DNA of 64,000 bases from Hexactinellida sp. DTS-2022 (taxonomy: Eukaryota; Porifera; Hexactinellida): NCBI GenBank assembly GCA_028753945.1, contig JAPNXP010000012.1, positions 5,416,501 to 5,480,500 of the forward strand, in the 5' to 3' direction. This document shows positions 877-56,981 of the stretch, in pieces. The notes beneath the pieces were generated by a model that saw nothing but the letters and a program-made list of their open reading frames with translations, was not told the DNA's origin and did not search any database. The first letter of the stretch is position 1, and every line of letters starts with the position of its first letter. The position numbers and the translations under genes were made by a program.

Positions 877-1141
877 ATGGGTGGGTTACTGGACAGAATA
901 GAGTCCCTGTCCCCTCAGGGCAAGACCTACTCGGTGGCCGGTCGGTCCCCTGACCCTCTCTCCTCCCCTGACCTCATACAGCCCACCCGACAGAGGGGGC
1001 TCTGGGGGGGCAGGGGTACACCGGATAGCGGGAGGCAGGTCCTGTGTCTCTCTGCTAGCGCCTACTGGCTGAGCGAGAATAATATCTGGGAGCCTGTGGT
1101 GGAGGGGAGGAGCAGCTTGTCGCTCTTCAAACTAACCAGCG
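877..1141 (+). CDS. TIAM-like gene, exon 1 (start of WH1-like domain)
   Basis: ATG at 877 opens a frame with QVLCLSASAYW near its end, matching the start of the still-life WH1-like domain. Donor G|GTAAAT at 1142 leaves phase 1. An AG at 872-873 could instead be an acceptor, which would make this an internal exon. Confidence 0.75.
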
Positions 1142-4100
1142 GTAAATACTCCGTATTGTATAGTATAACTCCGTTATAACGTACCCCCCAGGGAATGGAA
1201 TAAGTACGTATTATCCGAGTGTACGTACTAACCGAGTTTACCCTACATAGAAATACATACTGCGTTTTAATATTGGTTAAATTAAATTGGTACGTACTAA
1301 GGTAAATTATAACCGAGTTATACTGTAATTTTCTCTCAAGAATACTTCATTATTAACCAATAATTAATTCTTTTATTTAATGATTAATATTATCAAAACA
1401 CTCATTCCTTGTGACCTTAAATTGGCCTCGATATTATTTGTATATTTATCTAGGCCCCGAGGAGGAATATAGAGTGACGGTGCATAGTGATGACGTCACG
1501 CTAGAGCTGGGGAATATCTGGGTGCCCCGCGTGGAGGTGGTCCGGACGGACAGTTCCTCTGTCTACTGGGAGGACACCAGGGGGCGCGTGTGGGGGGTCA
1601 GGTTCCCGCTGGAGGGGGACACACTCCGGTTTATAGCTGGGTGCTCCCCCCTCAGCCTCAGACCCGGGGTCACCCGTCTCCGAGAGGGGGCCAGGTGGGT
1701 GCCCCCTATCCCCCCTGCCGAGGGGTCCAGAGGATCTCCGGATATCGAGACGGGACCATCCGACACACAGGTAACTATTGTGGTTATTTTAGAATAAAGT
1801 ATTTTCCCGAATTGTTTCGAGGGCCAAATTTACCCTCAAATTTTTGAAAATCAAGAAAATTATATTTAGGTGGATTCTAAATTATAATGGTTCTCAGCTA
1901 CAGTAAACATACGAAAATGTCTAAATTAGTTTACACTTCAGTTATCAATAGTGAGTATTATTTTGTAATACAAATGTTATGTTGTTTATTGACCCGGCGC
2001 TTATTTGGGGAAACACGTTAAGTAAAGCTCTCTGTTAAATAGATAATTTGAAATATAGATATTAACATGGATATAGGAGTTATAAATAGTGCGTAGTACT
2101 AGCTACTGCGGACAGGACTGGTAGAGTTGTACCAGCTGCGAAATGCTTTCTTCCACGAGCGCGATGTCCCTCTCCAGCTGTCCCCCTTCCCTCTGGAGTT
2201 CCTCTATCTCCCTTTCCTCGCTAGCTAGCTCCTCTAAAAGAGTCTCTATCTCTTCCAGCTCAACACTAGTCACTGTATCAAACAAGCTGCTAGTTGTGTT
2301 AACAAGTGCATTAAGCCTCTCTATAGCCTCTGATACATACGCTTCTTTATTAGTTAGGAACTCAGGCAGCTCTTCGGTCCCATTTATATACGCGTGCACC
2401 ACAGTGAATAGAGAGCCCGCTTGTCCGCAGGCTCCTATACACTGCCCTTCTGCCACTGTTGCACTCTGATAGCCCTCCTCAAACTTGTTGTTTATTCCTC
2501 CGTTAATTCTTCGCACGTCTAATCCCAGGGATATTATCCTATCGGACGTATCGATCAGCTGATCGGTTTCCTCGTAAAACTCCCCTAGCGCCTCCCCAGC
2601 TGATACCAGCGCATTCCTCGCATTCTCAATGGACACATTGGTAGTCACGGTCTGCGTAACCTGTGTGAGGTTTATGTTACTGACTACTTCTATCAACAAA
2701 TTAGAGGCGTTATTAGCAGCCGCCTGCGCGCGAACAGCGAGCTCACTCGCGAGCCTTGCCTCCGCGAGACTCTGGTTAGCCTCAGCTCGTATCCGCTCCA
2801 CGGCCCCCGCCGGGACGATAAGTCTGTTTATGTCAGCTGACAGAATGCCGGCTGTAGAGGGAGAGGGGCCTACTAGCGAGAGGGTGTCTCGAGACAGCTG
2901 ATCCGTGGGGCGCAGGGACTGCTCCAGGGAGGATACCTCCGCTAGGAGCTCTGTCTGTGCATACTGCGTACGGTTAGCCAGATCAGCTGTTCCTACTGAG
3001 TTGTTGAGAACCGCGAGAGACGCAGATAAGGCTGCAGCCGATTGGTTAGCTGTACCCTCTGTGTCGCTAAGCAGGACTCGAATGGAATGCAGGGAATCAG
3101 CTGCTCTCCCCTCCTTCTCCCCCGCGCTGCTCGCCGCCTCTCTGCTCACGTTCCCTGTCCCCGCGGCTATGGAGCCGCCCTCTGCGGTTAGAGCTCTGCT
3201 GGCATTCACCAGCTCCGCTACGCCCTCCCGCGTCTGGACGAGAGAGGAGAGCACAGCCCGGGCCCTGGCGAACTCGCTATCGAAGCTAGCTACCGTGGCG
3301 CTTATAGCAGTCAGCTGATCCGCTGTGTTCCCACTCGTGTTTGTGTACGCGGCTATTCTCTCCCCGCTGCTGGCAATCCCTGCCTGGGCGATGTGAACAT
3401 CTATGTTCTCTCTCGCTATGGCGCGAAGTGCCTCCCTCGCGGTTTCTCTCGCCCTGTCTACGCTACTCCTCACAGCTGTCAGCTCCGCCAATAGGATAGC
3501 TGCCGTTATAACCCCACCTCCCCCCAGCTGAATAGTCCCATTGAATCGCGTCGATACTCGAGTGTTGCCCTCGCTCTCCATTAGAGAGGTGCTAATCTCA
3601 CTCATCAGCTGTTCAAGACCCGTCAGGTTATAAGACAGGGCGGCTAATACTAGCTCCAGCTGGGATATCTGTGTGCGGTTAAGCGCAGAGCTCTGGGCGA
3701 GAGTCGCGGCTTCTAACAGATGTGTGTTGAGCTGGTTAATCTGTGCTGTGATGTTACTCAGCGAGAGGGGGAGGTACCCCGAGAGGAGGGCGTCCACTCT
3801 GCCCCCTAACACCTCTACAGCTGCCCCCTCCAAGGCTATCAGGGACAACCAATCGTAGAAGCACTGCGGACACTGCTCGCAAGTAGGAGGGGATCCTGTA
3901 GAGTATTCATAATACAGTGGAACCTAGGTAGTACGGATACCAACGGACGGTAAAATAGCCGCTTTATCCGGAGTTCGTATTAACCGGAGTAATACCAATT
4001 GAATAACTGTTTGTTCGTCTTATGCGGAAATTCGTACAAACGAGGTTCCACTGTAGTTAAGCTACGAATCGTATAACAACTGACCTGTGTATCCGAATGC

Positions 4101-7100
4101 GCACACATCACACTTGTCCCCCTGCACCCCTACGTCACAGCTACAGGCCCCCGTCCCCTGGTGACAGGACTCCCCCACAGCCCCCTCCCCACACCCACAC
4201 AGCTCGCACCCTCTCGCTGTAAAGTTAAACGCGTCTCCCGAGCAACCGCAGCACTTTATGTCCCTCTCCCCTCCCACGTTAGGGGAGCAGACACACACCC
4301 CTGTAAGCGCGTCACAGGAGGCAGAGAGGGACCCGTTGGAGCAGCAGCCGCACGGGATGCACCCCTCTGGGAGCCCCAGGTGCAGCCCCCAATATCCCTC
4401 CTCACAGGTGTCGCATCCGGGCCCCAGGACGTGGGGCTTGCAGGCACAGGCCCCGGTATCAATCTGACAGATGTTGTCCTCTCTCCCGAGTGTGTTGCAC
4501 TGACAGGGGAGACAGGAGTCCGAGGGGGCGTCCCCGAAGTACCCAGGGGCGCACAGCTCGCACTCAAAGCCCGCGGAGTTGTTGAGACAGAGGAGACACT
4601 CCCCTGTGGTCCGGTTGCAGTTCCCGGTCTGAGATAGGTCCGTGTTGTCCGAGCAGGAGCAGGTGGTGCAGCGGGCCCCGGGGAGGGAGGGGGTCCCGAA
4701 GTACCCGTCCCCACACACCTCGCAGTTCCGCCCCGTGTAACCGGGGGAACAGCTGTCGCAAGTGGGGAGGCTGTCCGTCCCCAGGAAGCAGGTCGGACTG
4801 AAGCTCTGCGTCTCCAGGGGACAGGGGCAGAGCCGACAGTCGGAGGGGGAGCCGGCACTGGCGTCTCCGTAGAACCCACTCAGACAGGCCTGGCAGTGGT
4901 CCCCCGTAGTGTTGTGCTGGCAGGCGAGACACGCCCCGGTTAGCGCGTCACAGGTGTCCGTGTGTCCGTTGCAGACGCAGGGGGTACAGAGGTGTGTCGG
5001 GTTCTGAGAGGGCCGGAAGTGCCCCTGGGAACAGGCCTCGCAGAAGTGGCCCGAGTAGGGGGCGGGACAGTCGCACCGCTCCACCACCTCTGCCCCTCCC
5101 GGGACCGCTACAAGGGTCTCTAGCAGGAAGTATTCCATAGACACACTCGCGATGCTAGCCTCGGAGTAGCGCGCCTTTATTCGCAGAGCGGTCAGGTTGG
5201 AGAGGACCTGGATCAGCTGAGCGTAGCTGGCGACGGGACCCTCGGGGGTGCCCACTCGCCAGCTGGTTTCGATAAGAGGGATAGAGAACGGGTTGCCGGG
5301 GCCGCTGGGGACCTCGCTAGGGAACGAGCTGATCAGCTGATCACCAAGGAAGCTGCCCTCTAGTATGACATCAGGCTCCGGACCTATGTACCGGGTCTCG
5401 TCTTGCAGGTCCTCTGAGAACACGCTCAGGACCAGGTTCTGTCCGTAGGAGAGACCCCTGTTTCCGAGGAAGGGACGGGGGGCCAGCCAGTAGACCTGCG
5501 CGGGACTCGTTATCAGGAATGTGACGTAGCTGTTGACGAGCAGCTGGAGATAGAAGGCGTCCTCTACTAGCCAGCCCATGGTGCAGGTTGTCCCGGTGGG
5601 GTCTAGGAATGTCTGGCAGCTGGAGAAGTTAGAGGAGAGCTGCGAGAGAGAGTACTCTTGTGTTAGGTTGGAACAGCTGTTCGCTTGTGTGTAGCATTTG
5701 CAGTCCTTGCATACCGGGGCTCCGTCCTCTGGCGCTACGTAGCTCCCGTCAGAACACACGCGGCACTTCTCGCCTGAGAACCCGTTGATACAGAGGCAGG
5801 TGCCCCCCTCCGAGCAGTCTAGGGAGGCGCTGGTGTCCTCGCGGCACTGGCAGGGGGAGCAGCCTGCTGCAGAGAGGGCGAAGTGGCCCGGGGAACAGCT
5901 GATACACTTGTCGCCTGTCACACCGGACAGACAGACGCAGCGGCCCGAGCCATCGCAGTCGCCGCCAGCTGAGAAGGCACTGCAGCCACACAGAGTACAG
6001 CCCGATACAGAGAGTCCGTAGAACCCCGACATACAGGTGTCGCAGGTAACAGCTGTTACGCCGGGCTTGCAGTCGCACTGCCCGCTAGTCGCGTTACAAG
6101 GGGTGTTAGTGGCCCCTGTGGGGTCGCAGGCACACGGCTCACAGCCTGATACAGACAGAGAGTGGTACCCAGGGGTGCAGAGGGTGCAATCGCGGTTTGT
6201 GACACCTCCTCTGCAGGGACACTGTCCCCCGAATGCGGCACAAACACCAGAAGAGGCCCCCAGAGGGTCGCAAGCACAGGGGAGAGCGGTCTCATAGAAA
6301 CTAGCCAGCAGAGAGAAGAGAGTGTCCTCACAGCTGTTAAGTGCTGTGTTGAGTGAGTAGTAGCTGTATACACATTCCATCAGCCCCTGTTGTTGCTGGG
6401 TAGCTAGGTCCGAGAAGAGAGGGGATAGCGAGTAGTCCGGTACCAGCAGGAGAGAGTCCAGCCAGAGCCCTGTGTCCGTAGGCGTGAGGGATACCGAGTA
6501 GAGGCCGGGGGTCCCCTGTAGACAGGTGGATAGCAGGGGGGCAGAGGAGTAGGAACTGTTGAGGAGCACTGTTTGTATTCTGTTTATATTGTCGCATGTG
6601 TCTGAGGTATCCTCGAGTCGTATCTCCATATTAACGCTCCCGCTCTGAAGTGTGAAGTACCGCAGAACCGGTATGTAGTTGAACCCCCGCGGGACGCTCA
6701 CACTCAGCTCCAGGGTCTCCCCCCTCTCGACCCTGGCCAGCCCCGCCCCCGTGTAGGGGAACAGCGAAAACAGACCCTCGTACCCCGGTACGTTCCTCCT
6801 CGGAATATTCCCCCCCTCCCCCTCGAACAGCAGGTAGTCCGGGCCGGGCAAGAAGTGTCCGGTCTCTACTCTCTCGCATCTGTCCCCCGCGAAGTTCGGT
6901 CGGCACTGACACTCCCCTGTCCCCTTGTCGCAGACAGGGGTAGCGGCCCCGCCCGCGTCACACCCACACGGGACACAGGCCCCGCCCCCGGAAATACCGT
7001 ATAGTCCGTCCTTACAGACATCGCACTGTCGCCCCTCTACGTTATCCCTACAGCTGCACTGTCCCGTGTCCGTATGGCAAGTTATAGAGAGACTTCCTAT

Positions 7101-10100
7101 CTCGTTACAGGCACAGCTCTCACACCCCCCGGGCTGGGACGAGAGGTTGAAGAACCCTAGCTTACACTCACTGCAGTCGCGTCCGAACACGTTAGTCTCG
7201 CAGAGGCACTCTCCCGAGGACACGAGACACACCCCCGCGTCAGCTGTTCCCTCCGGGTGGCAGCCGCAGGGGCGACATATGGAGGCGTCCGTGAGGAGCA
7301 GGAGAGGGTCCCTGTAGAAGAAGGGGAGACAGGACGCACATCTGTCCCCCGTGGTGTTGTGTAGGCAGTCCCGACAGACCCCGGACCCCAGGGTGCTATC
7401 GAACTCGCAAGCGGCAGCGTGTGAGTAGCACTGACAGAGCTGACAAGTGTTGCTGTCCGCGGGGGTCCCGGGGAGGTAGGCCCTGTTGTTGTGGAGCGGG
7501 AGACACCGCTCACAGCTGTTCCCCTCCGTGTTGTGTCCGCAGAGACAGCGGGCCGGCTGGCTGGGGTCGCAGGCGTCCGCGTGTCCGTTACAGAAACAGC
7601 TGGCCGACACGACCCACTCGGACACCGCGTGGTAGTACCCCTCGTCTATGAGGCCCACCGCCCGGTTGAAGGACAGGACCCGGGCCCGCAGGCCCGTAAC
7701 CAGCAGGTAGGCCAGGGCAGCGGCGCTCGCGTTGGTGACGCCCCCCGGGACCCTGCCGGCCGGGGAGAAGGCGACGGAGCCGCCGGAGAAGGGGTTTATG
7801 TCCGACTGGGAGGCGTCACAGACCGCAGCGGTCCCCAGGGCGGGGTCCGCGGGGTCTGGGGAGGGGGGCATATTGAAGTCGACCTGGCAGTCGGGAGAGA
7901 AGAACTGGTAGGGGACCCAGGTGGCCCCGAAGTCGGCGGTGTACTCGAGGAGCATGGAGCGGGGCCGGGGGCTGCGCCAGAGGAGCGAGGTCTCCGAGAG
8001 GAGGAAGCGAGCCGAGAGGTTGAGACGGAGGGTGACCCCGCTGAGGTCGGTCTCTGCCTGCCACCAAGTGGCGGCGTCTCCGTCTCCGGCGAGAGAAGCC
8101 GCGTGCTCCGAGGCGACACAATCGTAGCACTGGGTGAGGTCCCCTAGGGTGAGACTCAGAATCGGACAGGACAACTCGGGGCCCTCCGGACCGCAGGTAC
8201 TGCTGGCAGAGAGGGAGAGGGGACCGAGTTTTGGAGAAATGTTCTGAGAGGGGGGGTAGCAGCCCTGGGAGGGGGGACACACCGCGAGGCAGGGGGCCAG
8301 GAAAGAGAGGAACACGAGACACACACAGACACACTTCATCTGTAGTCTGATATGTGACGTAGCTGGGTAGTATAGATACTAACTAGGTTGAATGGAATTT
8401 CCACTAAAATATGTAAATATTTACGAAATTTGGGACAAGCTTCTTCAGGAGAATATTGTTGTAATATTCCTTGTTATTTTTCCAAATTTCCTAGTTTGGA
8501 TAAATAAATCTCATAAAGTGTATACTATACGTTTGTTTGTGTAAACAAATGGTTTTATAACATGTGTAGGAGGATCCTCTCGACTGCTCGCTACAACTCA
8601 GTTCCGGGCTGAAGGAAGGGGACCTACTCAGGGCAGTCATGGAGGGGTTCATTTCTAGAAAGTTATCTCTCGAGTTACAAGACTTGGATTCTCTATCATT
8701 CACACAACTCGATAACTCACCCATTCAGGAGCTGCCTCAAAAAGTAAGTGTATTATACAGCCATTTGTAAATACGCACCTAATCCTAGTATAATCCAATT
8801 TTAATACGCCTAAATTACAAATTAACGGTATAGGAGAGGATATCAAATTTTCGCGCTCCTAAATTCAAATTTTCACAAAATCCCGCTCCTAGTCCTTGGA
8901 TATTTCCTTGGTTCTATTTATAGCTACACTTGTTGCTTATAAACTGTTACCCCCAGGTGTCCCCTGTCCCCCTGGGGCCCGACAGAGACAGCAAGTTATC
9001 CGAGAAGAGCCTCTCCAGTGACGCCATCGCTCTACACCACTCCATCGACCATTTCACGCAGGCATTCGTGTCAGAAGCGGTTTTCAAAGATACGGGCCAC
9101 AGAGCGGGGATTGAGTCCCAGCGTCTGAGCGGCGTTAACTGGGTGTACCCGAAGGGACTGGATCGGATAGGGGGCGACACAGAGGAGACAGAGGGGTCCA
9201 ATTGCGACACAGAAGAGGCGTCGGAACCTCTGCTCATAGAGCTAGAGGAAGGTCTGGAAGGGGACTCCTATGCAGACATATACAGACACCACCACATAGA
9301 CTCTGGTATACGCACGCTATTCTACTATCATAAGGGCACTCTGGTTATAACAAGTCAAAGGGACACTTTCATTATTTAGCTATAAGCGGAGTAAAATCTT
9401 TACTTTTCAAGTCTGGGGGAAACTTCATTATAAGCAGTTATTTCGTTATACTGTATCCATATTATTGTTGTTATTATTCTTGTTTGTTATTATTATTGTT
9501 GTTGTTCTCTTAGAGTTGCAAGCTGACCTCTACACGCTTGACGAGGCCGTCAGGACGCTGGAGCTGAGCTCGGCCCGCCCCTCCCTCCCGGGCAGCCGGC
9601 GCTCCTCTCTGCTGGCCGAGCAGGAGAGACGCATGTCCCCCCCGGACCGGCGGGCCTCCAGACAGGGGGCGGAGGGGTCCCCCTCCCTGGCCCGCTACGC
9701 GTCCCTCCCCACGATCCCCTCGCGAGGGAGACTCGAGATAGAGACCAGCTCCGAGGTCTCTCTCAGCCACCTACAGTCCCAAACAGACAACCTAATCGGT
9801 ACACACACTTTATATATAATGTTACTAATAGCACAGTATAGTCTATAGCTTGCTCTTAAAAGCGGCAAGTGCAGGCAATGAATGCCCTCCCTGCGTCAGC
9901 TTGTGTCCCCCGTCCACAACCAGTACCTCTCCGGTTATATTGTCCGCCAGGCCGGAGCAGAGGAACACGCATGTCTCCGCCACCTCTGTCCGAGTGGCCA
10001 TCCTCTGGAGGGGGATGGAATCGGTGATCCGCTCCCTCGGGACCCCCGCCCCCAGTCTCCGCATCCCCTCTGTGTCCTCCACCGGCCCCGGGGCCACCGC

Positions 10101-16100: not shown

Positions 16101-19100
16101 TTAATAAGAAATAAGTGCTTCGAACCCCGGCATGTATTGTTTCCGTGGGCCATTTTTGGAAAAATTTTAAAATGATTTTTATTTGGGTTCTAATGGTATT
16201 TGGGTTCTAACCGTAGTTGCCAAAATCAATGAAATTACACTCCAGTTATAAACTAATGTGTTTTAATTTTACCATACCAATCCAAGCGTTTATTGGAAGC
16301 AATACGGTAGTTATTTATTTATTTAATACGTAACTTGAATACTGTTCAGCATGATCTGAGGTATTTAAGAACTCAGTTGCTGTCCCTTTCAAAGCTTGTT
16401 TAATACTAAGAAATGAAACGCCTATTAATTAATACAAATATCGGATGAGGTCCACTGTGTTATTACAAACGAGAGTTAATTGATACTGTCCCGATATTAG
16501 CTAGATATGATATTTCCCAGAAACATTGTAATTATACAAAATAATTAACAACAATTTGCTAACGATAACCATACATAGTAAGAGGCATATAAAAAGTCAT
16601 CAAAAATTTGAGTAAATGATATATCAATACTTTATCATAGTACTTTGCAAAAAACTTGTTATTTATGCAAATTTTACTCCAACTCGTGAGATTAATGCAA
16701 ATTATTAATTAAATTTTTTATATACGTAAGATCAAAATTGTTTATATTTTAATAAGCATACTTAATTTTAGTTTCAGTTTCAAGAATTCCTTTTAAATCC
16801 CTCAGTTTGCTAAGTCATACTCTAATAGGCTATGACTCATCGATTCCCAACCTTTTCAACCGTATACCCCCTACCTATAGCAAATATTAGACATTATGTG
16901 GACCCCTTCCATTGACCGTAATACAAAATTTTAGATCTTGTGGACCCCAGGTTGGGAACCACTTGGCTATGTAATAAACCCTTCAGTGCCTAAGGCAGTG
17001 GTTCTCAAACTTGGGACCGCGAACCTGCACTGAAAAGGTGAATTTGTGGTTAAATATCTTCCCAGTGACTGCAAATGCATTAGAAAGGGTGTTGGCCGTT
17101 ATATAAATAATCCTTAAAAACAGGCATAGCCAAATATATGTGTCTCTAAACCCCTAAAGTTAAATACCAAGTAACCCTTGACGTTTCTATAGGATTACTA
17201 TATCCAACTTAAGCATGAACACTCAGATCATCTCACAGAATACAATTCTCCTTCGGAACACGATTATTTCAGAGACCATTTGTTTTCTTCCCTTGAGCTG
17301 TGTTGTAAGGCCACTCACGTGATTGACCTATACCCCGTGGATGAGGTGCCATTGGGATTTTCTGTAGATGTAGTAGAGAGGAATATCTATGGAAAATTCA
17401 CGCCAAGTTTCGTTGTTTCGCAAGTTATAAGAGGTTAGTCATCATATTTTCTACACTTTGCAAATTTTATTTGTTTCAGTTTAGTAATCTTAATTAATAG
17501 ATATTCTTAATGTAGAATGTAGTGATTATTATTGATTTTTTAACTATACTAGTGCTCTGTTGAGGGCCAAAAATTGAAAAATTCACCAGGAATTCCATTT
17601 TAATCAGGAATCAATTAATCAATACAACTTGTGATTCTTTAATTGCCGTGTATAAAAAATGTTAATTCTCAATTGGATTCGGGTGATTTCCTCCCATGCA
17701 TTTTGGTATATAAATATGGTCGATCCATTCAAATTATAACTTAAATTGAAAACAAAAAATATTTTAAAAAAATGGAAAACACAATGGAAAATGATGCTTT
17801 ATTGAAAGAGCAGTTATCTCAATATCTGTACAAACCCAATACGAATATCCAAATAACGGATATGGATATTCTGAACATGGACCTAGTCGAACTCAGGAAA
17901 AAGCTCAGTGAGATTGGTTGCACTGAGCTCGTTAAAGCTAAGATCGCGGCGAAAAGACGAATGCTTAAATCTCGGGGATATGCTCAAGGGGCAAGAGACA
18001 GGCATCGCGAGCAAATGGACGGTCTTTTGCTGGAAAAACAGCAACTGGAAGCAGAGAGGGAAATCCTTATGCAAGAAGTCGAGTATTATAGGAAGGAATT
18101 GTAAACGCATCAATTTGTTGTTGTGTTTTGTTTCAATGTAGAATAAATATCATTTCTACATTTATTTTTCTAGTTTTTACCAAAGAATTTCTTATGGATT
18201 AGATTTGTAGTTATTTAACCAGTGTTCCCCCTTGATTCCATAATTATTGTATTAGGATATATTCAAATAGAGTTGTTCAGTTAGGTTGCTTAAACGCTTT
18301 GTTTTAATTCCCTATGTCAGAAATATAATCTGTTGCGAACAAATTCGGGAAAATTAAAAATTGTATTCAACTGAACCGTTAAAGAGGCTTTTATTTTGAA
18401 ATTTTAAATCAAAATTTTATTTCCCAGTTTGTCTGTTTAATAGAGTGTATACAGTGAATACAAACACCGTATCCACTCTATATTTTTTAAAAATTACTAA
18501 TTTATTTATTTATTAATACTGTGGAATCTCGATTGACGATTATCCGAACTCGTTGGGCCCCATCAAACATGTTCGGATAATCGAGGTTGCACTGTACTTA
18601 TAAATAGAACCGTTTCTATGAATATGTTCTTATAACTGACATGTAACAGGTATCCAACTCTAAATTATATGACAGTTCAGTTACCAGTTCCATACAATGG
18701 CACTTCTATAAACCAGCGGATTTAATCACACCTTAAGTGAGGTGTGATTTGTAGAAAGTAGTTTTTTATCAATTTCCTTCTTGGAATATTAATTAATTTA
18801 AATATTCGACTGTCTACACAAACAATATTTGTAATATAAAAGTCAAGAATAATTTAAAATCAGACAAACAAATATATTCACACAAGAGTACCAAATTTTC
18901 ATATTAAAATTTATAATATATCAATGTACAGTATACTTACTCGGTTAATACGTACCAGTTTGAGCCTCTTCAATTCGACGGTCCCCTGGTACAGATGTTC
19001 ATACTAACGAGACCGAGAGTCTACTTTACATTATTTCTGTTGCTGTTGATGTTGCTGTTGTTGTTGTTGTTATCGACTTAAAATTGACAGAATGTGATTA

Positions 19101-22100
19101 ATTAATTGAACCAGAATAAATAATTAAATACCAAATAATGCAAACCTCTCTTCTCAATTTTAATATTCTAGTAGCTAAAATTGAAAATCTGTTTATGTAA
19201 TTTTTCTCTCCATCTATAACTGACCTTTTGTATGGAATTCCGTATTTTTATTAAAACTCGTCGATATAAATTAGCCGACCGGAATTAGATTATTTGTTAT
19301 TAATATTTACAAACAAGATAGCATTTATTTTATAATTATTACAGGCATAAAAAGCATATATAAATCTCTTGCTTAGAAGTTTAGGTTTTCAGTTTGTTTG
19401 TTAAAATATAGAGCATGCAGGTATGCAATATAATAATTATTGTCTCATCATGGAAATCATCATATCGATTTCTTTCTCGAGTTGTTTCTTTTCCAGAATT
19501 AAGTTTTCCTTTTCCTTCAGAAGCAGTTTAATTTTAAGTCTGTAGGCCCGTGCATATCCTCTGCTTTTTATCTTCCTGCGAAAAGCGCGAATTATTTTTA
19601 TAGTTTCCTCGTTTGCTCCTATTTCTTGTAGCATGAATCGTAGAGGAATTATGCGCATTTTGACCAGTTCCTCTCTTGTTAACTTTTCCTTTCGATCCAT
19701 TTGTTATTTTATATTTAATTGTCATGATCTACTTTTATACTTTTATAAATCAAAATATACAATTGAGCTTTATTTTGGGATTTTTATTGAATATTTATTT
19801 CTTAATATTATTATGTATTTTACTGATTCTACTGAAGTAATTTGTCACAACAGCTGTTTTGACTTAAAGGTATTCTATACGAAAGCGACAATTCAATATT
19901 ATAGGACAACAATACTAATTTGAAGGATAAGATTACGTAATGAGAGTTAAATTTTTTGGGTATTTTTTACTGCATAATGAAAATATTGTAAAATATACAA
20001 AATGATTACCAGACTAATCTCTTATTTGAGAATCCACTAAATATATCTGATTTGTAGAATTACCCATTAGGCCACATTATATACATTGTTATCAAATAGA
20101 GATCATTTTCAAAATGTATTACATCTTAAACAAAGTATAATCCTGGGCCAAGCAACAAGGGGCATTATCGACTCAGTTAATTGGGGCGAGTTGACTGGTC
20201 CCGTAAATATAATAATTTGTATCTTAAAGGAAATCTCGGTTTATCGAGAGAAAACGTTGACTCCCGGGCTGTCTTGATCAAGCTGTACCTTTTGTATTGT
20301 ATTGGTCGACTCCGCTTAATTTTCTTCGAGGATAGTTTGTCCAATTAAGCAGAAAACCCACTCTAACTAGTGGCTCTATTAAGCGGAGTATAATGTACAT
20401 TGTACATATACTAGAGTCCATCTATAACCTGTATAAATAAAGACAGTAATATCAATACTGTCCTTACATAGTAGTTGGCACGTAAAATACCAATTCATCA
20501 CTGAATTGAAAATAAGTACAGTAGATTCCGAAAATACTAAGCACACTGCACGGGCACCGGTTATAAGAACACATCGGATATAAGAACACTATGTTGGAAA
20601 ACGGTTGCCATATACCCTATATAATTTATGTCGGTTATAAGAACATGCCGGTTATAAGCACATTAAGTGCAGTTCCCGACGATGTGCTTATAACCGGCAT
20701 CCACTGTATTCACATTCCTGACCTGTTCTATGACAACTTCCCAACCATTATCAATTTACAAATTTCTCAATATTATTTACATAGACTACTTTCTCTAATA
20801 TTCTGATTATATTTTTGTTAATTCATTGCATTTGAATAAGTTATTAATGCAATGTATCATTAGTAAGTTTAATGTTAATAAACTACTGAGTAACATTATT
20901 AATACTAATTGATTGACCGAACTTTTATCCTTAGTGTGGTAGGCTCTGGAAATTTCCCGCTTAACGATATCACAATTTTTGATAAAGCTGATTAAAAATA
21001 TTAATTTTTAATTTTTAATTCCCCGTCCCAAAAGGGGTGCTTGTTTAATCTTAATTTGTAAACGAGTATACGTATGTAATAAATTGCTAGCTAATCTTTT
21101 AATATTTTCAGTATGCAGCAGAATAGTTAGCTATTTACAGCTTGGCAAATTAATTTAAGCCCTTATGGTTACTAAGAAGAACGCATGAAATGTAGTATGT
21201 GTATTGCTAACTGGCTTATGTGAGAGAAAGCTTTTGTTTGTATTTTATAACTTCATCTTTGAGCTCGCTTTTCTCTTTGAGGAGAGATTCTTTTTCTTCG
21301 TTTAAAGCTGCGATCACCTCTCTTGCCTTGGCCCGACTCTTAATTGTGTGGAGTCTCGATTGTAGGAGTCTCCTTCGAGATTTAATCTTTGTTATTTGTA
21401 CTGGAGATGCCTTTAGCGCTGTGAAAAGTTTGTTCAAATTCTGTACGCTAAGTTTTAGGATAATGTCGTCGGGTAAGCTGTTGACTAGGGAACTATAGAC
21501 AAGCGACTCTGAATTTGAGGAGGTACTTTTGTTCCCTGAGGACATTGTTAATTTCGTATTGCTTTGTTTGTTATTTGTATTTACATTTTGGGAGGTTGGT
21601 ATTTATATGTGAGTTCTCTTAGAATTGATAACAATTTTAACACTAAGGCGGACCTCTCTTTTCTGTATTCATTTTTGATATTTCTATTTTGAGATTGTAT
21701 TCAATTTTGGTATCAAACTTAACTTCCTAATTTTGATAACGAAACAGTAGATTTACACTTGTGTCTTTATCCCATGAGTTTTTATTTGAATAATTATCGA
21801 AATTATTTCCTGAGTGTGTTAGTAACGGGACTTATCTAAAATACATTTTGCAAGTTTTATAAATAAGTTAGCAATACCATTGGTTGTTAGCAAATTGCAT
21901 TTAGATTAGTAAGAAATAAATATAACGCAATTATTGAGATATTTATATTTGTGATAGGAATAGTTCATTTTTCCCCAAACAGAAACTTTAAAATAGCTTA
22001 GAAACAGTATTTAAATTAGTTTAACTAATTGAACTGTAATATTATACTTACTTTCAGTTCCATCTATCTCTAATTAGCGAGTTATATTCTGTATATTAAT

Positions 22101-25100
22101 TGTTTAATAGAATAGCAAGGCGAATTATCGGTTAAGGAGTACAAGGTTTATTTCCCCTAGCCCAATCAAATGCATGTCAGTGACACGAATTTCGGATAAT
22201 ACGAACAAATTTGGACGGTCCCCTGGTGTTCCTATTAAGGACTAACATGAACAGAGTTTAATCGCCTAAGTAAATGCAAAATGTATAAATCAACTATTTT
22301 CCCTATAATAATCGTCAAATTCCCCCATTTGGGCCCTTGGTGGGATATAGAAAAGAGATTGTTAGATATATTCCACTATATATATAATACTGTTGTTTAT
22401 CTAGGTGGACAGGCTGATATATTTGGTTTAACACTGGGCGACGAGTTGATATCAATAAACAGCACGAATACCCACACACTCTCTCTTGAGGGGGTGCATG
22501 CTCTGCTAAGCCAGGAGTCCGTAAGGATTCAGTTCCGAACAAAACGAAGGAAACTTCCCTACTCCGTCGAAGAGATAGAACTTATAAACACGCTTATCTG
22601 CCCTGCCCCTCCCATGAGCACCTCGCGACTCTCCACTCAGGAAATCGGACCCCTGGTTATCCCCAACCCGAAGCACTTGTCCTTCATGAGTATCCGCGAC
22701 CTCGCGGACAGAGACGAGCCTCTGGAGGAGTGGAGCGACCAAGACCTGCTACAGACTCTGGTAACGGAGTCACAAGCGTTAAACTATAGTGTTAGGTTTA
22801 GTGAGTTCTGCTCTCCTCCCGAGGAGGGAGGTATACGGCCTGCCTTGCAGTCAAAGGCCAGTAGACTAATTCAGTGCTGCAATGAACTAGTCGGTACAGA
22901 GAAGGAATTCATATCAGCTCTGGGACTGCTCATACAAAGGTAATACTGTAGAACCTCGTTAGTAGGAAGTTAAGAACACCAGGGGACCGTTAATATGCGC
23001 CTTATTCGGAATTCGTATTACCCAATCTCATTTGTATTGAAAGGCTTTAGGGGACAGAAATAGAGTTCGTATTATTAATTTATTAATTAACCGGAATTTC
23101 GTATTAACCGTTTTCGTACTAACGAGGTTATACTGTAATTACTAATTATAAAACAGTATAATTGTCCCTGATTACACGAAATATTAGTGTTACAGTTATC
23201 ATTATTGGGACAGTTATACCAATATATTGTCTGTCCTAATCAATCGAAATCGGCTGTATTTTATTGCATTTCTGAGCTATTGCGATATCTACAATGTAAT
23301 TCTAATTGGTGCGAAAGTTATTCAATACGATCTATGTATTATTGTTGATGTAATATTATTTTGTATAACTACTATGTATCATACAATATGATGTAAAAAT
23401 AACTGGTAATTTCCCAACGGAATTTATTTTATATTTGAATTTCACATGTCTAATTATAAACCAAATTCATTAATTTTCAATTTAGAGATATTTATTTTTA
23501 TCGAAGTTTTAATTATAGATTTTATCTAACATACTTGCGAAATAGAAAGTATTTTACTCGGTTATTACTAATAGGTTAATTAATTAATCAAGGTACTTTC
23601 ACTGGTTGATTAGTAAGATAATTCTACATTAATTAATTTATTAATCCATACGTGAATCACGGATAAGTCTTTGCCATTTCACGGAGAATTACTCAACTAG
23701 TGTGTTAATTAAGTTCGCAACTTATAATTCATAAATCCGACATTAACATTTGCACTTATTTATTGTAATTAAATATATTTTGATTTAAACTACTTTGTGA
23801 TTCCTGAGGAATAAATACAGTCGACTCCGCTTAATAGGGTCAGTTTTTTCCAGGGTAGTTTAATTCGATTAAGCAGAGAAATATAATAACCGAAAATATT
23901 TTGAGTCAAACTGTAATTCCGTCCTATAAATCCTGTAAACTTTTGCACCCATTAAGCGGAGAAATATATTAACCGGTGGCTCTATTAAATAATTAAGCGG
24001 AGCATACTGTATGGACATAATTGTCGGTTGTATGAACTTACACCCATTTGTATGGAAAATAATATTATAGCAGGGTTTTTTATGAAGCCGATCTTGGTGT
24101 AAATTTTGCACCAATATTTTTGGGAGTTACACCACGATTCGGGTCGGCCGCGGCCGCTGCAGTGTTGAGTTACACCAAGGTCTCAACATTAAAAAAAACC
24201 CTGTACTATACTATAGTATTTCCAATTGGTTTCTCCACACAGATACCTGAAGCCTCTTCAACAGGAATCCTTCGTGTGTCAGGCAGAAATAGCGTCTCTC
24301 TGTGAGAATACAAAGCAAGTTCTAACCCAACAGAACGAATTCTTCTCGCAGCTCAAATTAGCATTGAATGTTCCATCCGAAGAGAATACTACTTCCTCAC
24401 TAATACTCAACTTCTCAAATATATTCATCCAACATTCCCATAACTTCAGACTATTCAGTACTTTCTGCACCAGCTATAGGAACGCCCAGGAACTAATTAA
24501 CAGCAACAGCGATGACGTCAACGCGTTTCTAGAGGCCAGAAACCCACACAACAAACACGAAGTGAGGTTCGACTCTCTCCTTGCCCTCCCCATTCAGAGG
24601 ATTCTACGGTATCCGCTGTTCCTACGTAACATGCGTGATAGTGTTGGAAAGGGGAGTGAGGAGTATAAATGCATTTCCAATGCTATTCAGATAATGGATC
24701 GGGTAGCAGGGTACATTGACGAGGTTCAGTACATGAGTGAGAAGTTTGCGAGTCTGTTTAATGGCATTGTTACTGAATCTAGACTTAGGAACGTAGGCGT
24801 ATACATAGACATCGCAGAGCTGAGACACAAGTTCGATGTTGTGTGGCTGAATCCGACAGAGGAAACTGGAAAATGGAAGAAGAAAGGAGAGGGACCTGAA
24901 ATGACTCTATTTCTATTTCCGCGTTTGTTAATTGTGATTTCCTACGACAGTAAGTTCAGAATGAAACTCTCAAAACACGGTACAGTTGAGTACAGAGAGT
25001 TGGAAGAATTGGTTCACTACAAATTGGCTCTTCTCCTATTTTATTGCACTTTTAAGGACTTTCCAGATAGCGATGGTGTGAGTAATATGGTGTCGATAAG

Positions 25101-25215
25101 TAGTCAGGGGATAGAACATAAAGTTAACTTGATTATTAAGTGTAAGTCTCGACCTGAAAAAGCTAAACTTATCCGAGAGTTTAAAACCTCAATTGAAAAT
25201 GTGAAAAGCAGTTAG
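877..25215 (+). CDS. TIAM/still-life type Rac guanine nucleotide exchange factor, 12 exons
   Basis: Multi-domain Rac GEF expected at membranes and cell contacts. Exons: 877-1141, 1454-1770, 8570-8743, 8957-9305, 9514-9798, 11108-11391, 11832-12106, 13358-13562, 15743-16066, 17193-17433, 22405-22939, 24243-25215. Their lengths sum to 4227 nt (1408 aa plus stop) and every junction keeps frame. Domains in order: WH1-like N-terminus as in Drosophila still life (about 45-165; SVYWEDTRGRVWGVRF, then CSP), PHn with coiled-coil extension (464-718; CKSGWLVVSRLL, KWRRHWCSVKG, then RTKCYIASLNNLDIPNP), Ras-binding domain (about 780-860), PDZ (about 875-945), DH (about 1050-1250; RYLKPLQQESF, LPIQRILRYPLFLR) and C-terminal PH. 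Human TIAM1 is 1591 aa. Introns 2, 5, 7, 8 and 10 contain other genes. The intron after exon 9 appears to be GC-AG. The start ATG 877 (MGG) is the least certain part; a further 5' exon is possible. Confidence 0.9.
1454..1770 (+). CDS. TIAM-like gene, exon 2 (WH1-like domain)
   Basis: Acceptor TATCTAG|GC at 1452-1453; donor CAG|GTAACT at 1771, phase 0. It encodes the YRVTVHSDD strand and the SVYWEDTRGRVWGVRF core followed by CSPLSLR, close to still-life VYWKDPMTNDTWGLNF and CSPSFKF. Confidence 0.85.
2103..8339 (-). CDS. Laminin-like chain, two exons, nested antisense in TIAM intron 2
   Basis: Basement-membrane type secreted glycoprotein of 2015 aa. Exon 1 is 4085-8339 (start ATG 8339) and exon 2 is 2103-3895; donor G|GTCAGT and acceptor CTACAG|GA join in phase. 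A signal peptide (MKCVCVCLVFLSFLAPCLA) is followed by an LN domain (to about 270), five LE modules, an LF-type domain IV (about 490-690, starting near GHFLPGPDYLLFEGEGG), more LE modules, an L4 domain (about 900-1090, YWLAPRPFLGNRGLSYG), a further set of about seven LE modules, then CEQCPQCFYDW and a coiled coil of about 570 residues ending QSCPQ. Carrying both LF and L4 is alpha-chain-like. The absence of LG domains, a Cys pair in the coil (CIGAC) and a C-terminal Cys are beta/gamma-like. A 6.2-kb gene with one intron is unusual for laminin. Confidence 0.88.
3914..4053. mobile_element. Pogo/Tigger-like MITE filling most of the laminin intron
   Basis: CAGTGGAACCT at the left and AGGTTCCACTG at the right form terminal inverted repeats, each flanked by TA. 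The element is 140 bp inside a 189-bp intron (3896-4084). The interior shares TTCGTATTAACCGGAG with other copies in the window. Confidence 0.75.
8570..8743 (+). CDS. TIAM-like gene, exon 3
   Basis: Phase-0 exon between acceptor TGTGTAG (ending 8569) and donor AAA|GTAAGT at 8744. The 58 codons begin EDPLDCSLQLSSGLKEGDLL. No ATG-initiated ORF of useful length marks it; it was found by splice sites and phase. It follows the 6.8-kb intron that contains the laminin-like gene. Confidence 0.75.
8757..8910 (+). repeat. Dispersed repeat D, copy 1 (TIAM intron 3)
   Basis: Begins ACAGCCATTTGTAAATACG and continues through GGTATAGGAGAGGAT and TTTTCGCGCTCCTAAATTC. The same order of blocks recurs near 11497, 26994 and 63151. 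It begins about 13 bases after the exon-3 donor. This copy lacks the clean terminal hairpin seen in the others. Confidence 0.7.
8957..9305 (+). CDS. TIAM-like gene, exon 4 (linker)
   Basis: Acceptor CCCCCAG|GTG, phase 0; donor TCTG|GTATAC at 9306, phase 1. It encodes a Ser/Glu-rich linker between the WH1-like and PHn domains. The donor is the weaker of the two sites. Confidence 0.75.
9514..9798 (+). CDS. TIAM-like gene, exon 5 (linker)
   Basis: Acceptor is a pyrimidine/TTG-rich tract ending CTCTTAG at 9513; donor ATCG|GTACAC at 9799. It begins ELQADLYTLDEAVRTLEL and continues as a Ser/Arg/Pro-rich, probably phosphorylatable linker. Confidence 0.75.
9843..10700 (-). CDS. DECR2: Peroxisomal 2,4-dienoyl-CoA reductase, nested antisense in TIAM intron 5
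   Basis: Single-exon SDR-family enzyme, 285 aa, close to human DECR2 (292). It reduces 2,4-dienoyl-CoA esters with NADPH during beta-oxidation of polyunsaturated acyl chains. Visible motifs: SGGGSGIG cofactor-binding loop near 30, NNAAGNF, and [26 protein letters not shown], where the usual SDR Tyr is absent but Lys is kept, as is typical of DECR enzymes. [15 protein letters not shown] also matches DECR2. The protein ends SKL, a canonical type-1 peroxisomal targeting signal. The stop lies only 45 bases from TIAM exon 5. The gene is fully inside the intron, so it needs its own promoter on the opposite strand. Confidence 0.93.
   Translation of the reverse strand: [285 protein letters not shown]
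11108..11391 (+). CDS. TIAM-like gene, exon 6 (PHn domain)
   Basis: Acceptor GGTGTAG ends at 11107; donor ATGCAG|GTACTA at 11392. It encodes CKSGWLVVSRLLRHKKRR and KWRRHWCSVKGASLVLH, the start and core of the N-terminal PH domain that targets TIAM proteins to membranes. Confidence 0.85.
11497..11670 (+). repeat. Dispersed repeat D, copy 2 (TIAM intron 6)
   Basis: Runs from ACAGCTGTTTGTAAATACG to GGAGCGTCTCGCTCTCCTGG. It shares an ordered block structure with copies 1, 3 and 4. The 3' end carries a hairpin-like GGAGCG/CGCTCC arrangement. Confidence 0.75.
11832..12106 (+). CDS. TIAM-like gene, exon 7 (PHn C-terminal helix and coiled-coil extension)
   Basis: Acceptor TGTGTAG ends at 11831; donor ACAG|GTATGA at 12107, phase 2. 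It encodes the PH terminal helix (VVKWIQQLHCSAAIACTRQL) and a heptad-rich coil, matching the CC part of the TIAM PHn-CC-Ex module. Confidence 0.85.
12113..12330 (+). repeat. Two tandem pogo-like MITE fragments (TIAM intron 7)
   Basis: The block CTCGTTAGTAGGGACACCAG...GGGGACC...TTCGTATTAGCCGGAGT at about 12120-12215 is repeated at about 12229-12330 with few differences. It begins about ten bases after the exon-7 donor. Confidence 0.7.
12433..13041 (-). CDS. Coiled-coil protein of unknown function, nested antisense in TIAM intron 7
   Basis: Single exon, 202 aa, start ATG 13041. I do not recognise the family. Residues 1-35 carry SKQIVDCILLQEQL, then a Pro-rich loop (PPAPCPPGPE), then a nearly continuous charged coiled coil from about 55 to 185 (LETQLECLKQENGILGERLD and similar heptads), and a Lys/Gly-rich tail ending QGQGKGKKT. 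GC content and codon use match the surrounding TIAM exons rather than the AT-rich intron, which supports a real gene. There is no signal peptide or membrane segment. It could be a cytoskeletal or ciliary adaptor, but nothing in the sequence decides that. Confidence 0.75.
   Translation of the reverse strand: MSEQQFPSHYTVSKQIVDCILLQEQLSQDLLSRNKRVPPAPCPPGPEVGVQASVTEGFLELQNLETQLECLKQENGILGERLDSETERAEMSVAESEILAKQLEREKETFENAFGLMRTRALQENSKNEDLSTRCAALEAMLTRKEQELESRDQKIRELTAQLKKHKEAHKHLLSDMSLKMQQELYIDKMVGKQGQGKGKKT
13101..13308. mobile_element. Pogo-like MITE, family A (TIAM intron 7)
   Basis: Starts near TACAGTATATCCTCGTTAATAG and ends in TTCGTACTAACGACGGTTCC, a degenerate inverted repeat. The interior GGGGACCGTCAAAATGCG and TTTGTATTGAAAGGCTTT is shared with copies at 22945 and 49050. 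Confidence 0.65.
13358..13562 (+). CDS. TIAM-like gene, exon 8 (Ex part of PHn-CC-Ex)
   Basis: Acceptor TTTTCTAG ends at 13357; donor ATAAGG|GTTAGT at 13563. The reading RTKCYIASLNNLDIPNP followed by RKLGLFTACTAYAF matches TIAM1 RFRCYLASLQGGELPNP and GRLGIFSVSSFHAL. Confidence 0.85.
13712..15190 (+). CDS. SLC2/GLUT-type MFS sugar transporter, nested in sense in TIAM intron 8
   Basis: Single exon, 492 aa, about 12 membrane segments. Family marks in order: a first helix with FKLGFGLGFPSP, FGRK after helix 2, GRALAGVAAGLCFTTVPVYVGE (the GR...PVY.GE signature of helices 4-5), GRKSLTIISG after helix 8, HGLGWGSVGFILLGELFP, and PETKRKTVEEIEELF after helix 12. The overall pattern is nearest to the GLUT6/GLUT8 or insect trehalose/hexose transporter branch, but substrate is not predictable by eye. 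It lies on the same strand as the host gene between exons 8 and 9, so it must be transcribed from its own promoter and polyadenylated without ending the host transcript. The start ATG 13712 is the first in frame. Confidence 0.88.
   Translation: MLEFVRTFSLWKHGSWEVLFATLVANVSTFKLGFGLGFPSPTSLELLRSGILSQYTFPVFSSIFALGVAAGCMCVVPLLKIFGRKFVLILSSLLSASCYILISGSSCSALLIVGRALAGVAAGLCFTTVPVYVGEVAHFKVKGLFAGVFGLSLRFGTLGAYILGMFLSFRWLALFPVFLDTLCVPLLVSLCYSPSWLLGRGLDRRAASLLVRLGRTEEEALTECEQVRRVLSEKEHSGIKTKFKLTFTRYNLKALLIGLTYMLLEPMTGTDVIDAYSSRILSENKFILSDPNTASLAFPLFAIVANLLLLALVDRVGRKSLTIISGFGIIVCLFSMSIYVYATNSIEFTANTTEYAFLGICPVASLAGIRFLHGLGWGSVGFILLGELFPLRVRSLLAGISSCCSWLVIFVVLLVFPLLSEWVGYGVTFGILGAVNIFSMLFVVFFLPETKRKTVEEIEELFKERTVFCLCCDSRSKQTNRDDQHALVELFN
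15743..16066 (+). CDS. TIAM-like gene, exon 9 (Ras-binding domain, N-terminal part)
   Basis: Acceptor TTAATGTAG ends at 15742. It ends at CCTCAG followed by GCAAGA, read as a GC donor, because LYSCINKNLDPQ then joins the next exon's DYYIQLK without a gap against TIAM1 LICKTHQLDHSAHYLRLK. A GT donor nine bases later (16076) would insert three extra residues. Confidence 0.75.
16836..16964. mobile_element. hAT-like MITE (TIAM intron 9)
   Basis: Ends resemble GATTCCCAACC and GGTTGGGAACCACTT in inverted orientation. Flanking direct repeats GGCTATGA (16828-16835) and GGCTATGT (from 16965) fit an 8-bp target-site duplication, typical of hAT. A second hAT-like end (CAGTGGTTCTCAAACTTGGG) follows at about 16997. 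Confidence 0.7.
17193..17433 (+). CDS. TIAM-like gene, exon 10 (end of RBD, start of PDZ)
   Basis: Acceptor TTTCTATAG ends at 17192; donor AGAG|GTTAGT at 17434. DYYIQLKHEH completes the RBD; VIDLYPVDEVPLGFSVDVV begins the PDZ domain, with PLGF as the carboxylate-binding loop. Confidence 0.8.
17772..18104 (+). CDS. Small Maf-like bZIP protein 1, nested in TIAM intron 10
   Basis: Single exon, 110 aa. Residues 28-50 (ITDMDILNMDLVELRKKLSE) align without gaps to the Maf extended homology region (SDDELVSMSVRELNQHLRG). The basic region KRRMLKSRGYAQGARDRHRE follows the Maf pattern RRRTLKNRGYAASCRIKR, and then a short leucine zipper (LLLEKQQLEAEREILMQEV). Small Mafs are nuclear dimerising bZIPs that bind MARE sites. 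The signature Asn of the bZIP basic region is Ser here and the Cys is Ala, so DNA preference may differ. It lies on the host strand; an AATAAA at 18142 could be its polyadenylation signal. It could act as a dominant partner lacking an activation domain. Confidence 0.82.
   Translation: MENTMENDALLKEQLSQYLYKPNTNIQITDMDILNMDLVELRKKLSEIGCTELVKAKIAAKRRMLKSRGYAQGARDRHREQMDGLLLEKQQLEAEREILMQEVEYYRKEL
18518..18596. mobile_element. Tigger-like MITE (TIAM intron 10)
   Basis: The left end CTGTGGAATCTCGATT and the right end AATCGAGGTTGCACTGTA are inverted repeats; both contain ATTATCCGAAC, characteristic of pogo/Tigger ends. Total length is about 80 bp. Confidence 0.7.
19437..19700 (-). CDS. Small Maf-like bZIP protein 2, nested antisense in TIAM intron 10
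   Basis: Single exon, 87 aa, start ATG 19700. LTREELVKMRIIPLRFMLQE matches the Maf extended homology region, and AFRRKIKSRGYARAYRLKIK matches the Maf basic region, including RGYA. A short zipper follows (LLLKEKENLILEKKQLEKEI). The bZIP Asn is replaced by Ser and the Cys by Tyr. Composition is AT-rich and Lys/Ile-rich, unlike copy 1, suggesting a different age or relaxed constraint. There is no other domain. It is likely a nuclear dimerisation partner; function is inferred from family only. Confidence 0.78.
   Translation of the reverse strand: MDRKEKLTREELVKMRIIPLRFMLQEIGANEETIKIIRAFRRKIKSRGYARAYRLKIKLLLKEKENLILEKKQLEKEIDMMISMMRQ
20303..20398. mobile_element. Pogo-like MITE, family B fragment (TIAM intron 10)
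   Basis: GGTCGACTCCGCTTAATT at the left and TAGTGGCTCTATTAAGCGGAGTA at the right are inverted versions of the family B ends seen complete at 23818-24009. Confidence 0.65.
20519..20706. mobile_element. Pogo-like MITE, family C (TIAM intron 10)
   Basis: CAGTAGATTCCG at the left and GGCATCCACTG at the right, both flanked by TA. Inside are GGTTATAAGAACA and CGGATATAAGAACA units and the diagnostic AACGGTTGCCATATACCCT. It is nearly full length compared with 45039-45212. Confidence 0.8.
21216..21545 (-). CDS. Divergent Maf-like bZIP protein 3, nested antisense in TIAM intron 10
   Basis: Single exon, 109 aa, start ATG 21545. A Ser-rich N-terminus precedes LPDDIILKLSVQNLNKLFTA, which fits the Maf extended homology region (SDDELV.MSVRELN). 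The basic region (IKSRRRLLQSRLHTIKSRAKAR) is much altered: RGYA has become RLHT and the signature Asn is Ser. A zipper-like stretch follows (LNEEKESLLKEKSELKDEV). It is the least conserved of the three and may bind different DNA or only dimerise. A plain coiled-coil protein is the alternative reading. Confidence 0.65.
   Translation of the reverse strand: MSSGNKSTSSNSESLVYSSLVNSLPDDIILKLSVQNLNKLFTALKASPVQITKIKSRRRLLQSRLHTIKSRAKAREVIAALNEEKESLLKEKSELKDEVIKYKQKLSLT
22405..22939 (+). CDS. TIAM-like gene, exon 11 (rest of PDZ, start of DH)
   Basis: Acceptor TTTATCTAG ends at 22404; donor AAAG|GTAATA at 22940, phase 2. It encodes GLTLGDELISINSTNTHTLS of the PDZ domain, a linker, and the first DH helix (CCNELVGTEKEFISALGLL). 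Confidence 0.88.
22945..23136. mobile_element. Pogo-like MITE, family A (TIAM intron 11)
   Basis: Left end ACTGTAGAACCTCGTTAGTAGG, right end CGTACTAACGAGGTTATACTG, inverted. It starts only about six bases after the exon-11 splice donor. Interior GGGGACCGTTAATATGCG is shared with other copies. Confidence 0.7.
23818..24009. mobile_element. Pogo-like MITE, family B (TIAM intron 11)
   Basis: CAGTCGACTCCGCTTAATAG at the left, AATTAAGCGGAGCATACTG at the right, each flanked by TA. Inner repeats of TTAAGCGGAGAAATAT are present. It is the best-preserved family B copy here. Confidence 0.8.
24071..24203. mobile_element. Short MITE with GC-rich core (TIAM intron 11)
   Basis: CAGGGTTTTTTATG at the left and CATTAAAAAAAACCCTG at the right are inverted ends. 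Inner inverted copies of TTGGTGTAA/TTACACCAAGG follow. Flanks TATTATAG and TACTATAC may be an imperfect 8-bp duplication. The centre has GTCGGCCGCGGCCGCTGCAG, strikingly GC-rich for this intron. Confidence 0.65.
24243..25215 (+). CDS. TIAM-like gene, exon 12 (DH and C-terminal PH)
   Basis: Acceptor TCTCCACACAG ends at 24242; stop TAG at 25213-25215. RYLKPLQQESF matches TIAM1 RYLKPLQKETF. The DH signature ALPIQRILRYPLFLR is intact, followed by VWLNPTEETGKWKKKG at the start of the PH domain as in TIAM. The protein ends about 30 residues past the PH core, without the long tail of vertebrate TIAM1. Confidence 0.92.
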
Positions 25216-37093: not shown

Positions 37094-37163
37094 CTTGGTA
37101 CCCTAGCTACTTTATAAGCACAGTCGAGTCGATAAATAGGAACCCCCCCCCCCGAGTAATTGT

Positions 37164-56672: not shown

Positions 56673-56819
56673 TTTATAGTTTTCTTGTAGGAAGATAATA
56701 CACAAATAAACTAAATAAAGAATTGTTTGATTTCGGATAAAAACGGTCTCTCCTATAGTTTGAAAGAGTCACTTTATCGAAATAGGATCAAATGTAGATG
56801 TAAATGCTATTAAACATAA

Positions 56820-56981
56820 GGAACAAATTAATCGCGCGTAAATACGGACTTTGGAAGTACAGCATGAGTCCCATTGTTTTCAGAGCATACCCGAAGTAAG
56901 ATGGGTGTATAAGGTACTCATACGGGCCTGTTGTAACCAAACGGTGTCCCTCCCTTATACCAATATCGTAGGTGAAGATTT
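56820..56981 (-). pseudogene. Duplicated fragment of the ICMT-like gene
   Basis: Near-identical to 60908-61068, inside the ICMT-like gene at 60788-61345 (shared starts GAACAAATTAATCGCG, shared ends ACCAATATCGTA). It covers roughly the middle third of that gene, including the GPYEYLIHPSYFGYALK segment, and has no start or full domain. It marks the upstream edge of a segmental duplication carrying paralogue 1. Confidence 0.88.

Follow-up and report, generated by a model that had tools for sequence, protein, structure and literature searches.

The stretch of DNA analysed here (the window, 64,000 nucleotides) contains at positions 877–25215 of its forward strand one modelled host gene, whose 12 coding exons give a spliced product of 1,408 amino acid residues. 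Seven further protein-coding frames were located inside its introns.

The host gene and its domains

Exons 1 (877–1141, with the ATG at 877) and 2 (1454–1770) encode the first part and the remainder of an EVH1-like region, respectively, and are followed by exons 3 (8570–8743), 4 (8957–9305) and 5 (9514–9798). Exon 6 (11108–11391) carries the bulk of the first PH domain, exon 7 (11832–12106) the end of PH together with the first half of the Tiam CC-Ex domain, and exon 8 (13358–13562) the second half of Tiam CC-Ex. Exon 9 (15743–16066) is RBD-like by eye only. The first part of a PDZ domain is found in exon 10 (17193–17433), its remainder along with the start of DH in exon 11 (22405–22939), and DH, a second PH domain and the stop codon in exon 12 (24243–25215); all exons lie on the plus strand. 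Phase is kept at all 11 junctions of the model. Ten introns are of the GT-AG and one of the GC-AG type, the GC donor being restricted to intron 9, directly after exon 9, and all 11 introns end in an AG acceptor. The predicted exon structure is beyond chance as judged by codon usage: in 11 of the 12 exons the modelled frame ranked first among the six frames, and in exon 10 second, in a test trained on 4,620 codons from eight long frames elsewhere in the window.

The domain order of the predicted protein (a weak EVH1-like region, PH, Tiam CC-Ex, PDZ, RhoGEF and PH) corresponds to the Tiam/Still-life layout. Pfam models located PH at residues 467–573, Tiam CC-Ex at residues 603–698 (PF18385, 5.8e-17) and RhoGEF at residues 1064–1244 (4.1e-31). 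PDZ was recognized at residues 879–951 by two models, PDZ_6 with 28.3 bits (cut-off 27) and PDZ with 24.5 bits (cut-off 23.2), and the second PH domain scored 23.3 bits with PH_Tiam1, below the cut-off of 27. The best matches of the host protein among PDB chain sequences were the DH-PH chain of TIAM1 (1foe, 4e-42), which aligned with exons 11–12, and the PH-CC-Ex chain of TIAM2 (3a8p, 2.5e-31), which aligned with residues 466–705 encoded by exons 6, 7 and 8. For exons 1 and 2 together, the sole PDB match at E up to 10 was a weak one to the EVH1 domain of VASP (E 0.11, chain residues 4–107 of 115), and a Pfam WH1 match was absent from the host protein at E up to 1. Likewise, an RBD between CC-Ex and PDZ gave no Pfam match in the host at E up to 1; exon 9, compared with a TIAM1 sequence, resembles this domain by eye only. 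With TIAM1, TIAM2 and Still life the host shares a putative EVH1-like region, PH-CC-Ex, PDZ and DH-PH in identical order, but it differs in that the RBD was not recovered by Pfam and the EVH1 match is weak. As predicted from these domains, the host is a Tiam/Still-life-type putative Rac-GEF. An earlier note on this DNA had proposed a TIAM/still-life-like gene of 12 exons with consistent phases, and the 11 phase-keeping junctions and the matches to TIAM1 and TIAM2 bear this out.

A search for the Tiam CC-Ex family across the 112.4 Mb genome (18 contigs) at E up to 1 returned one place, the half domain in host exon 8; hence the host is the only Tiam found at that sensitivity. From the exon junctions at residues 558, 650, 906 and 1085 it follows that intron 6 cuts PH, intron 7 CC-Ex, intron 10 PDZ and intron 11 DH. 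Whole domains are often encoded in single long frames in this genome, according to family surveys. A search for the wnt family returned no candidate, which agrees with the glass sponge Oopsacas (PMC10280926), but the controls of this search gave no signal either, so that it does not establish absence. A glass sponge is the likely source of the genome. A single frame of 881 amino acid residues with C2, PDZ, sub-threshold RhoGEF and RGS domains was observed on the minus strand at 34460–37102, 9 kb from the Tiam gene.

Genes within the host introns

All seven nested coding frames, delimited here from the first ATG to the stop codon, are contained within single introns (2, 5, 7, 8 and 10), which for the laminin and DECR2 genes is conditional on the assignment of exons 1–5 to the host. 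Five guests are antisense to the host and two, the SLC2 and the first Maf-like gene, are in sense. The earlier count of seven nested genes, spread over five introns with five in antisense and two in sense orientation, was in this way recovered by frames and family matches.

The first nested gene (2103–8339, minus strand, intron 2) encodes a laminin chain in two coding exons separated by one short intron, for which two candidate junctions (183 or 189 bp) exist within about 3895–4107. Its Pfam domains are LamNT, laminin EGF repeats, Laminin_B and a weak Laminin_IV_B, followed by a long helical-looking tail. Chimeric beta/gamma-like laminin chains are described from Oopsacas (PMC10280926), and the nested chain likewise combines Laminin_B with a weak Laminin_IV_B. 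The second gene, DECR2 (9843–10700, minus strand, intron 5), encodes a peroxisomal 2,4-dienoyl-CoA reductase with an SKL end, and its frame matched the chain of the peroxisomal 2,4-dienoyl-CoA reductase 4fc6 with 6.8e-98 among PDB chain sequences. Intron 7 contains a SPATA24-like coiled-coil gene (12433–13041, minus strand; PF15175, 2.3e-26) and intron 8 an SLC2-type sugar transporter gene (13712–15190, plus strand; PF00083, 8.8e-58). The remaining three genes, all in intron 10, encode Maf-like short bZIP proteins of 110 (17772–18104, plus strand), 87 (19437–19700, minus strand) and 109 amino acid residues (21216–21545, minus strand); with 45.3, 25.0 and 29.8 bits, respectively, all three are above the cut-off of 22 bits of PF03131 (bZIP_Maf). 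Four of the seven guests sit between exons sharing one domain, namely CC-Ex across intron 7 and PDZ across intron 10. In codon usage, the own frame was the best of six for laminin (both pieces), DECR2, SPATA24 and the three Maf-like genes, the latter having the lowest scores among the guests. The SLC2 frame came second, narrowly outscored by an antisense frame that contains 22 stops; that the SLC2 frame is coding is nevertheless indicated by a Pfam match spanning 409 residues.

The Maf-like proteins are 28–45% identical, over the aligned parts, to the five best-scoring relatives among those compared. Genome-wide, short Maf-like bZIP frames were detected at E up to 0.01 in at least 67 places, every one above the Pfam cut-off, and 65 of the 67 listed places are free of an internal stop; the number is a lower bound, since the second copy in the window (25.0 bits) is not among them. 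An asparagine of the basic region is near-invariant in bZIP proteins. Serine replaces it in all three copies of the window, and it is absent from 16 of the 20 copies read (17 loci from L012–L031, with L013 and L015 left out, and the three in the window). Possibly these proteins are relatives of Maf whose DNA binding is altered, or they act as inhibitors.

Intron content in the locus and in the genome

The bulk of host intron 3 (8744–8956, 213 bp) is a dispersed repeat (8746–8910, plus strand), a second copy of which is present in intron 6 (11486–11668, plus strand); both ends are approximate, by eye. Starting at base 3 of intron 3, the repeat supplies with its first bases the larger part of the donor GTAAGT. 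Intron 7 contains a stretch (12107–12420, plus strand) with a second dispersed repeat family, to which pieces at 3924–4010, 13110–13199, 22185–22241 and 22955–23048 are related; these relatives extend to introns 10 and 11 and into the laminin gene, close to that gene's own intron. Repeats occurring more than once in the locus were found in introns 3, 6, 7, 10 and 11. Genome-wide queries with the intron 3 and intron 7 repeats yielded 1,643 and 1,336 first-look candidates, respectively, 40 of which were scored in either case, and most of the 40 scored copies of the former start at base 4 of intron 3. A BLAST search within the retrieved sequence gave 12 pieces of the intron 3 repeat, of which 11 could be cut with their flanks; seven were aligned, intron 3 included, whereas the four pieces located in L049, including a nearly full-length one, were dropped. 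Intron 3 was considered as an introner and rejected, as the repeat ends about 45 bases before the acceptor and six other copies have unrelated flanks. From its sequence, the element is read as a short dispersed repeat inside introns. The presence of repeats in the introns suggests that repeat insertion helped to make room for the guests, and nothing was seen in the locus to show that repeats carried the guests in.

An AATAAA or ATTAAA motif is present within 900 bp of the stop codon in seven of the eight genes, the host included, which in AT-rich sequence is weak evidence. The exception is DECR2, for which neither motif was found within 900 bp; its stop codon lies 45 bp from host exon 5, so that its 3′ end may overlap this exon. 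In the host introns, with nested coding sequence masked, the two motifs occur 23 times in sense and 56 times in antisense, where a first-order Markov model predicts 32 and 42, respectively. This bias was set aside as main evidence, being modest (P 0.012), post hoc and supplied to a large extent by intron 10 with its antisense guests (11 sense, 28 antisense). No strand bias was present in 24 background introns (341 versus 399, P 0.36).

Introns of other genes were surveyed through the domains of four families (RhoGEF, myosin head, kinesin and UCH). Gaps were defined by consecutive hits on one strand whose profile positions meet within −20 to +25 and which are separated by 30 to 40,000 bases; whole-domain single-frame hits and some lone partial hits were left out. 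The survey comprised 99 intron-like gaps with a median of 413 bp, and all 26 gaps of at least 1 kb were read. Two of these, C11:567165 and C1:9438991, appeared host-coding-like and were dropped for the rates based on 24 gaps. By eye, an apparent further host exon is also present in the Rab-bearing gap C16:257121, and not every gap is necessarily a single intron. Pfam was run on 13 of 49 non-overlapping frames of at least 100 amino acid residues, picked by eye. Six of them were cellular (Rab, APG12, pre-PUA/PUA, here named MCTS1, a PRK-like kinase cut at the gap edge, and two NHL proteins), five were transposon-type (one tested in part) and two had no match; as 13 of the 49 frames were tested, six nested cellular genes is a lower bound. 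At least one frame of this length with a non-transposon Pfam domain is held by five of the 26 gaps of at least 1 kb, which points to nesting as a general habit of this genome.

The APG12 (ATG12) and MCTS1-type genes share one 1.85 kb kinesin gap (L054, C18:963501–965900), antisense to its host. A giant RhoGEF gap of 28.7 kb was considered as a bigger nest and rejected; two of its six frames of at least 100 amino acid residues were tested and both were transposon-type. The nine such frames in a UCH gap of 25.9 kb did not appear protein-like by eye. Within the window, three tandem related frames of about 360–390 amino acid residues are located on the minus strand at 55605–60552; the two tested gave no Pfam match, and by eye the starts of these frames resemble the NHL proteins from two gaps on C14.

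Interpretation of the nest

We consider it highly probable that the locus consists of one Tiam/Still-life host with 12 coding exons and seven independent protein-coding genes in introns 2, 5, 7, 8 and 10. Transcription of the host would start upstream of 877 and continue past 25215, and introns and guests would be spliced out together. Each guest would be transcribed separately, from a short promoter situated between host exons up to a poly(A) site that is likewise its own. As we propose, splicing outcompetes intronic polyadenylation, which would let the host transcript survive the poly(A) signals of its two sense guests, SLC2 and the first Maf-like gene. Among 1,651 nested genes of flies, 727 have the same direction as their host, and poly(A) signals in introns remain inactive as long as the 5′ splice site is present (PMC3890989). 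Such splicing-based silencing would suffice for the Tiam locus. The earlier observation that the sense guests have to acquire their poly(A) tails while the host transcript runs on names a real requirement, but in view of the fly data not a special one. As to origin, the guests may be genes that settled in introns enlarged partly by insertion of dispersed repeats. A functional tie between host and guests is not claimed.

The weakest link of this model is the join between exons 1–5 and exons 6–12, which decides whether the laminin and DECR2 genes count as nested in Tiam. As the frame of exon 5 stays open up to a stop at 9848, exons 1–5 might instead constitute a separate EVH1-like gene ending there, and exons 6–12 a shorter Tiam with its own first exon in 10722–11107; laminin would then lie in the upstream gene, DECR2 would be intergenic, and Tiam would host five genes in three introns. 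Short tiam-1 isoforms lacking the EVH1-like region are indeed made in Caenorhabditis elegans (PMC3343084). However, exons 5 and 6 join in phase across GT-AG sites, and the frame of exon 6 has no in-frame ATG between its last stop and the start of PH, which calls for an upstream coding exon. In addition, each of exons 1–5 ranks first of six frames in codon usage. The same paper describes an EVH1 domain together with DH-PH for Tiam1 and Sif, and reports that a cDNA united two adjacent gene predictions, one upstream and one downstream, into the single C. elegans tiam-1 gene (PMC3343084). Phase, codon usage, the missing start codon of exon 6 and the weak EVH1 match are indirect signs, and they indicate that exons 1–5 and 6–12 very probably form one host gene; two separate hosts are unlikely. 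Another reading concerns the two sense guests, which could be promoterless, reside on the host pre-mRNA and be freed by spliced-leader trans-splicing, as an operon inside an intron. The ATG of SLC2 follows host exon 8 by just 150 bp, leaving scant room for a promoter, and spliced leaders are reported for a glass sponge, Aphrocallistes vastus; in that species, however, a predicted leader was found on just 4% of the long reads (PMC10282587). Promoters of 150 bp are possible, and 339 bp are available ahead of the first Maf-like gene. Trans-splicing is a very unlikely source of these transcripts. We give hardly any credence to a combination in which the sense guests are trans-spliced off the host pre-mRNA and, at the same time, the host and its antisense guests cross-regulate each other, e.g. 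via a DECR2 3′ end overlapping exon 5; if true, it would amount to an operon inside introns.

The model of one host with seven independent genes is compatible with the nest being ordinary for this genome, i.e. with intron number and length explaining the seven guests, and this reading competes solely with the claim that the locus is remarkable. At least six nested cellular genes were present in the 26 surveyed gaps of other genes, and Tiam is simply richer in long introns, seven of its 11 reaching 1 kb versus 26 of the 99 gaps (Fisher P 0.016). Against this, guests of at least 100 amino acid residues still exceed expectation, with six in Tiam versus 1.75 expected per long intron (P 0.009) or 0.83 expected by intron length (P 2e-4), both post hoc. 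Occupied long introns make up five of seven in Tiam versus five of 26 (Fisher P 0.016) or five of 24 gaps (P 0.022), again post hoc. These P values flatter Tiam, as the locus was picked as an extreme and the count in the sample is a lower bound. Post hoc, Tiam is denser in guests than the surveyed sample of its genome, and we regard the ordinary reading as a serious possibility with somewhat less than an even chance. That the concentration is unusual, as stated in the earlier note, is supported in part: Tiam exceeds the sample, but nesting is general in this genome and known elsewhere.

From its sequence, the Tiam nest looks real and dense; sponges, flies and other animals are already known to have arrangements of this kind, and the case leaves the knowledge of nested genes as a class unchanged. 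It offers an example of dense nesting in a compact animal genome, with five host introns occupied in both orientations. If confirmed by RNA, the locus would make it possible to test how a host copes, within 24 kb, with antisense transcription and the poly(A) signals of several guests, and how introns grown by repeats come to house genes. A description of this nest was not found in a search of the nested-gene literature, a search not aimed at Tiam in sponges. A close parallel is A. vastus, which probably belongs to the same sponge class and likewise combines a compact genome (80 Mb, 186 scaffolds) with many single-exon genes and much nesting (2,432 nested genes, 12.4% of genes); the sections covered give neither guests per host nor a Tiam host (PMC10282587). 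The same sections call about 12% nested genes normal across several animal phyla and tabulate 83 for Oopsacas, 3,358 for Amphimedon and 5,032 for Sycon, counts that are affected by the annotation method, to which the authors relate the low value of Oopsacas (PMC10282587). In Drosophila melanogaster, eight genes are placed in the introns of one host, dunce, four of them small new-glue genes in a run; dunce extends over 167 kb, of which 94.8% is intron, whereas the Tiam locus holds its seven genes within 24 kb (PMC7230524, PMC10835880). For the ctenophore Hormiphora californensis (110 Mb), 2,357 nested genes in 1,654 hosts are reported (PMC8527503). As in the Tiam locus, sense-strand guests occur there, and transposable elements flank 1,109 guests on at least one side; in contrast, the mean is 1.4 guests per host (computed here), and the example in a figure legend has four (PMC8527503).
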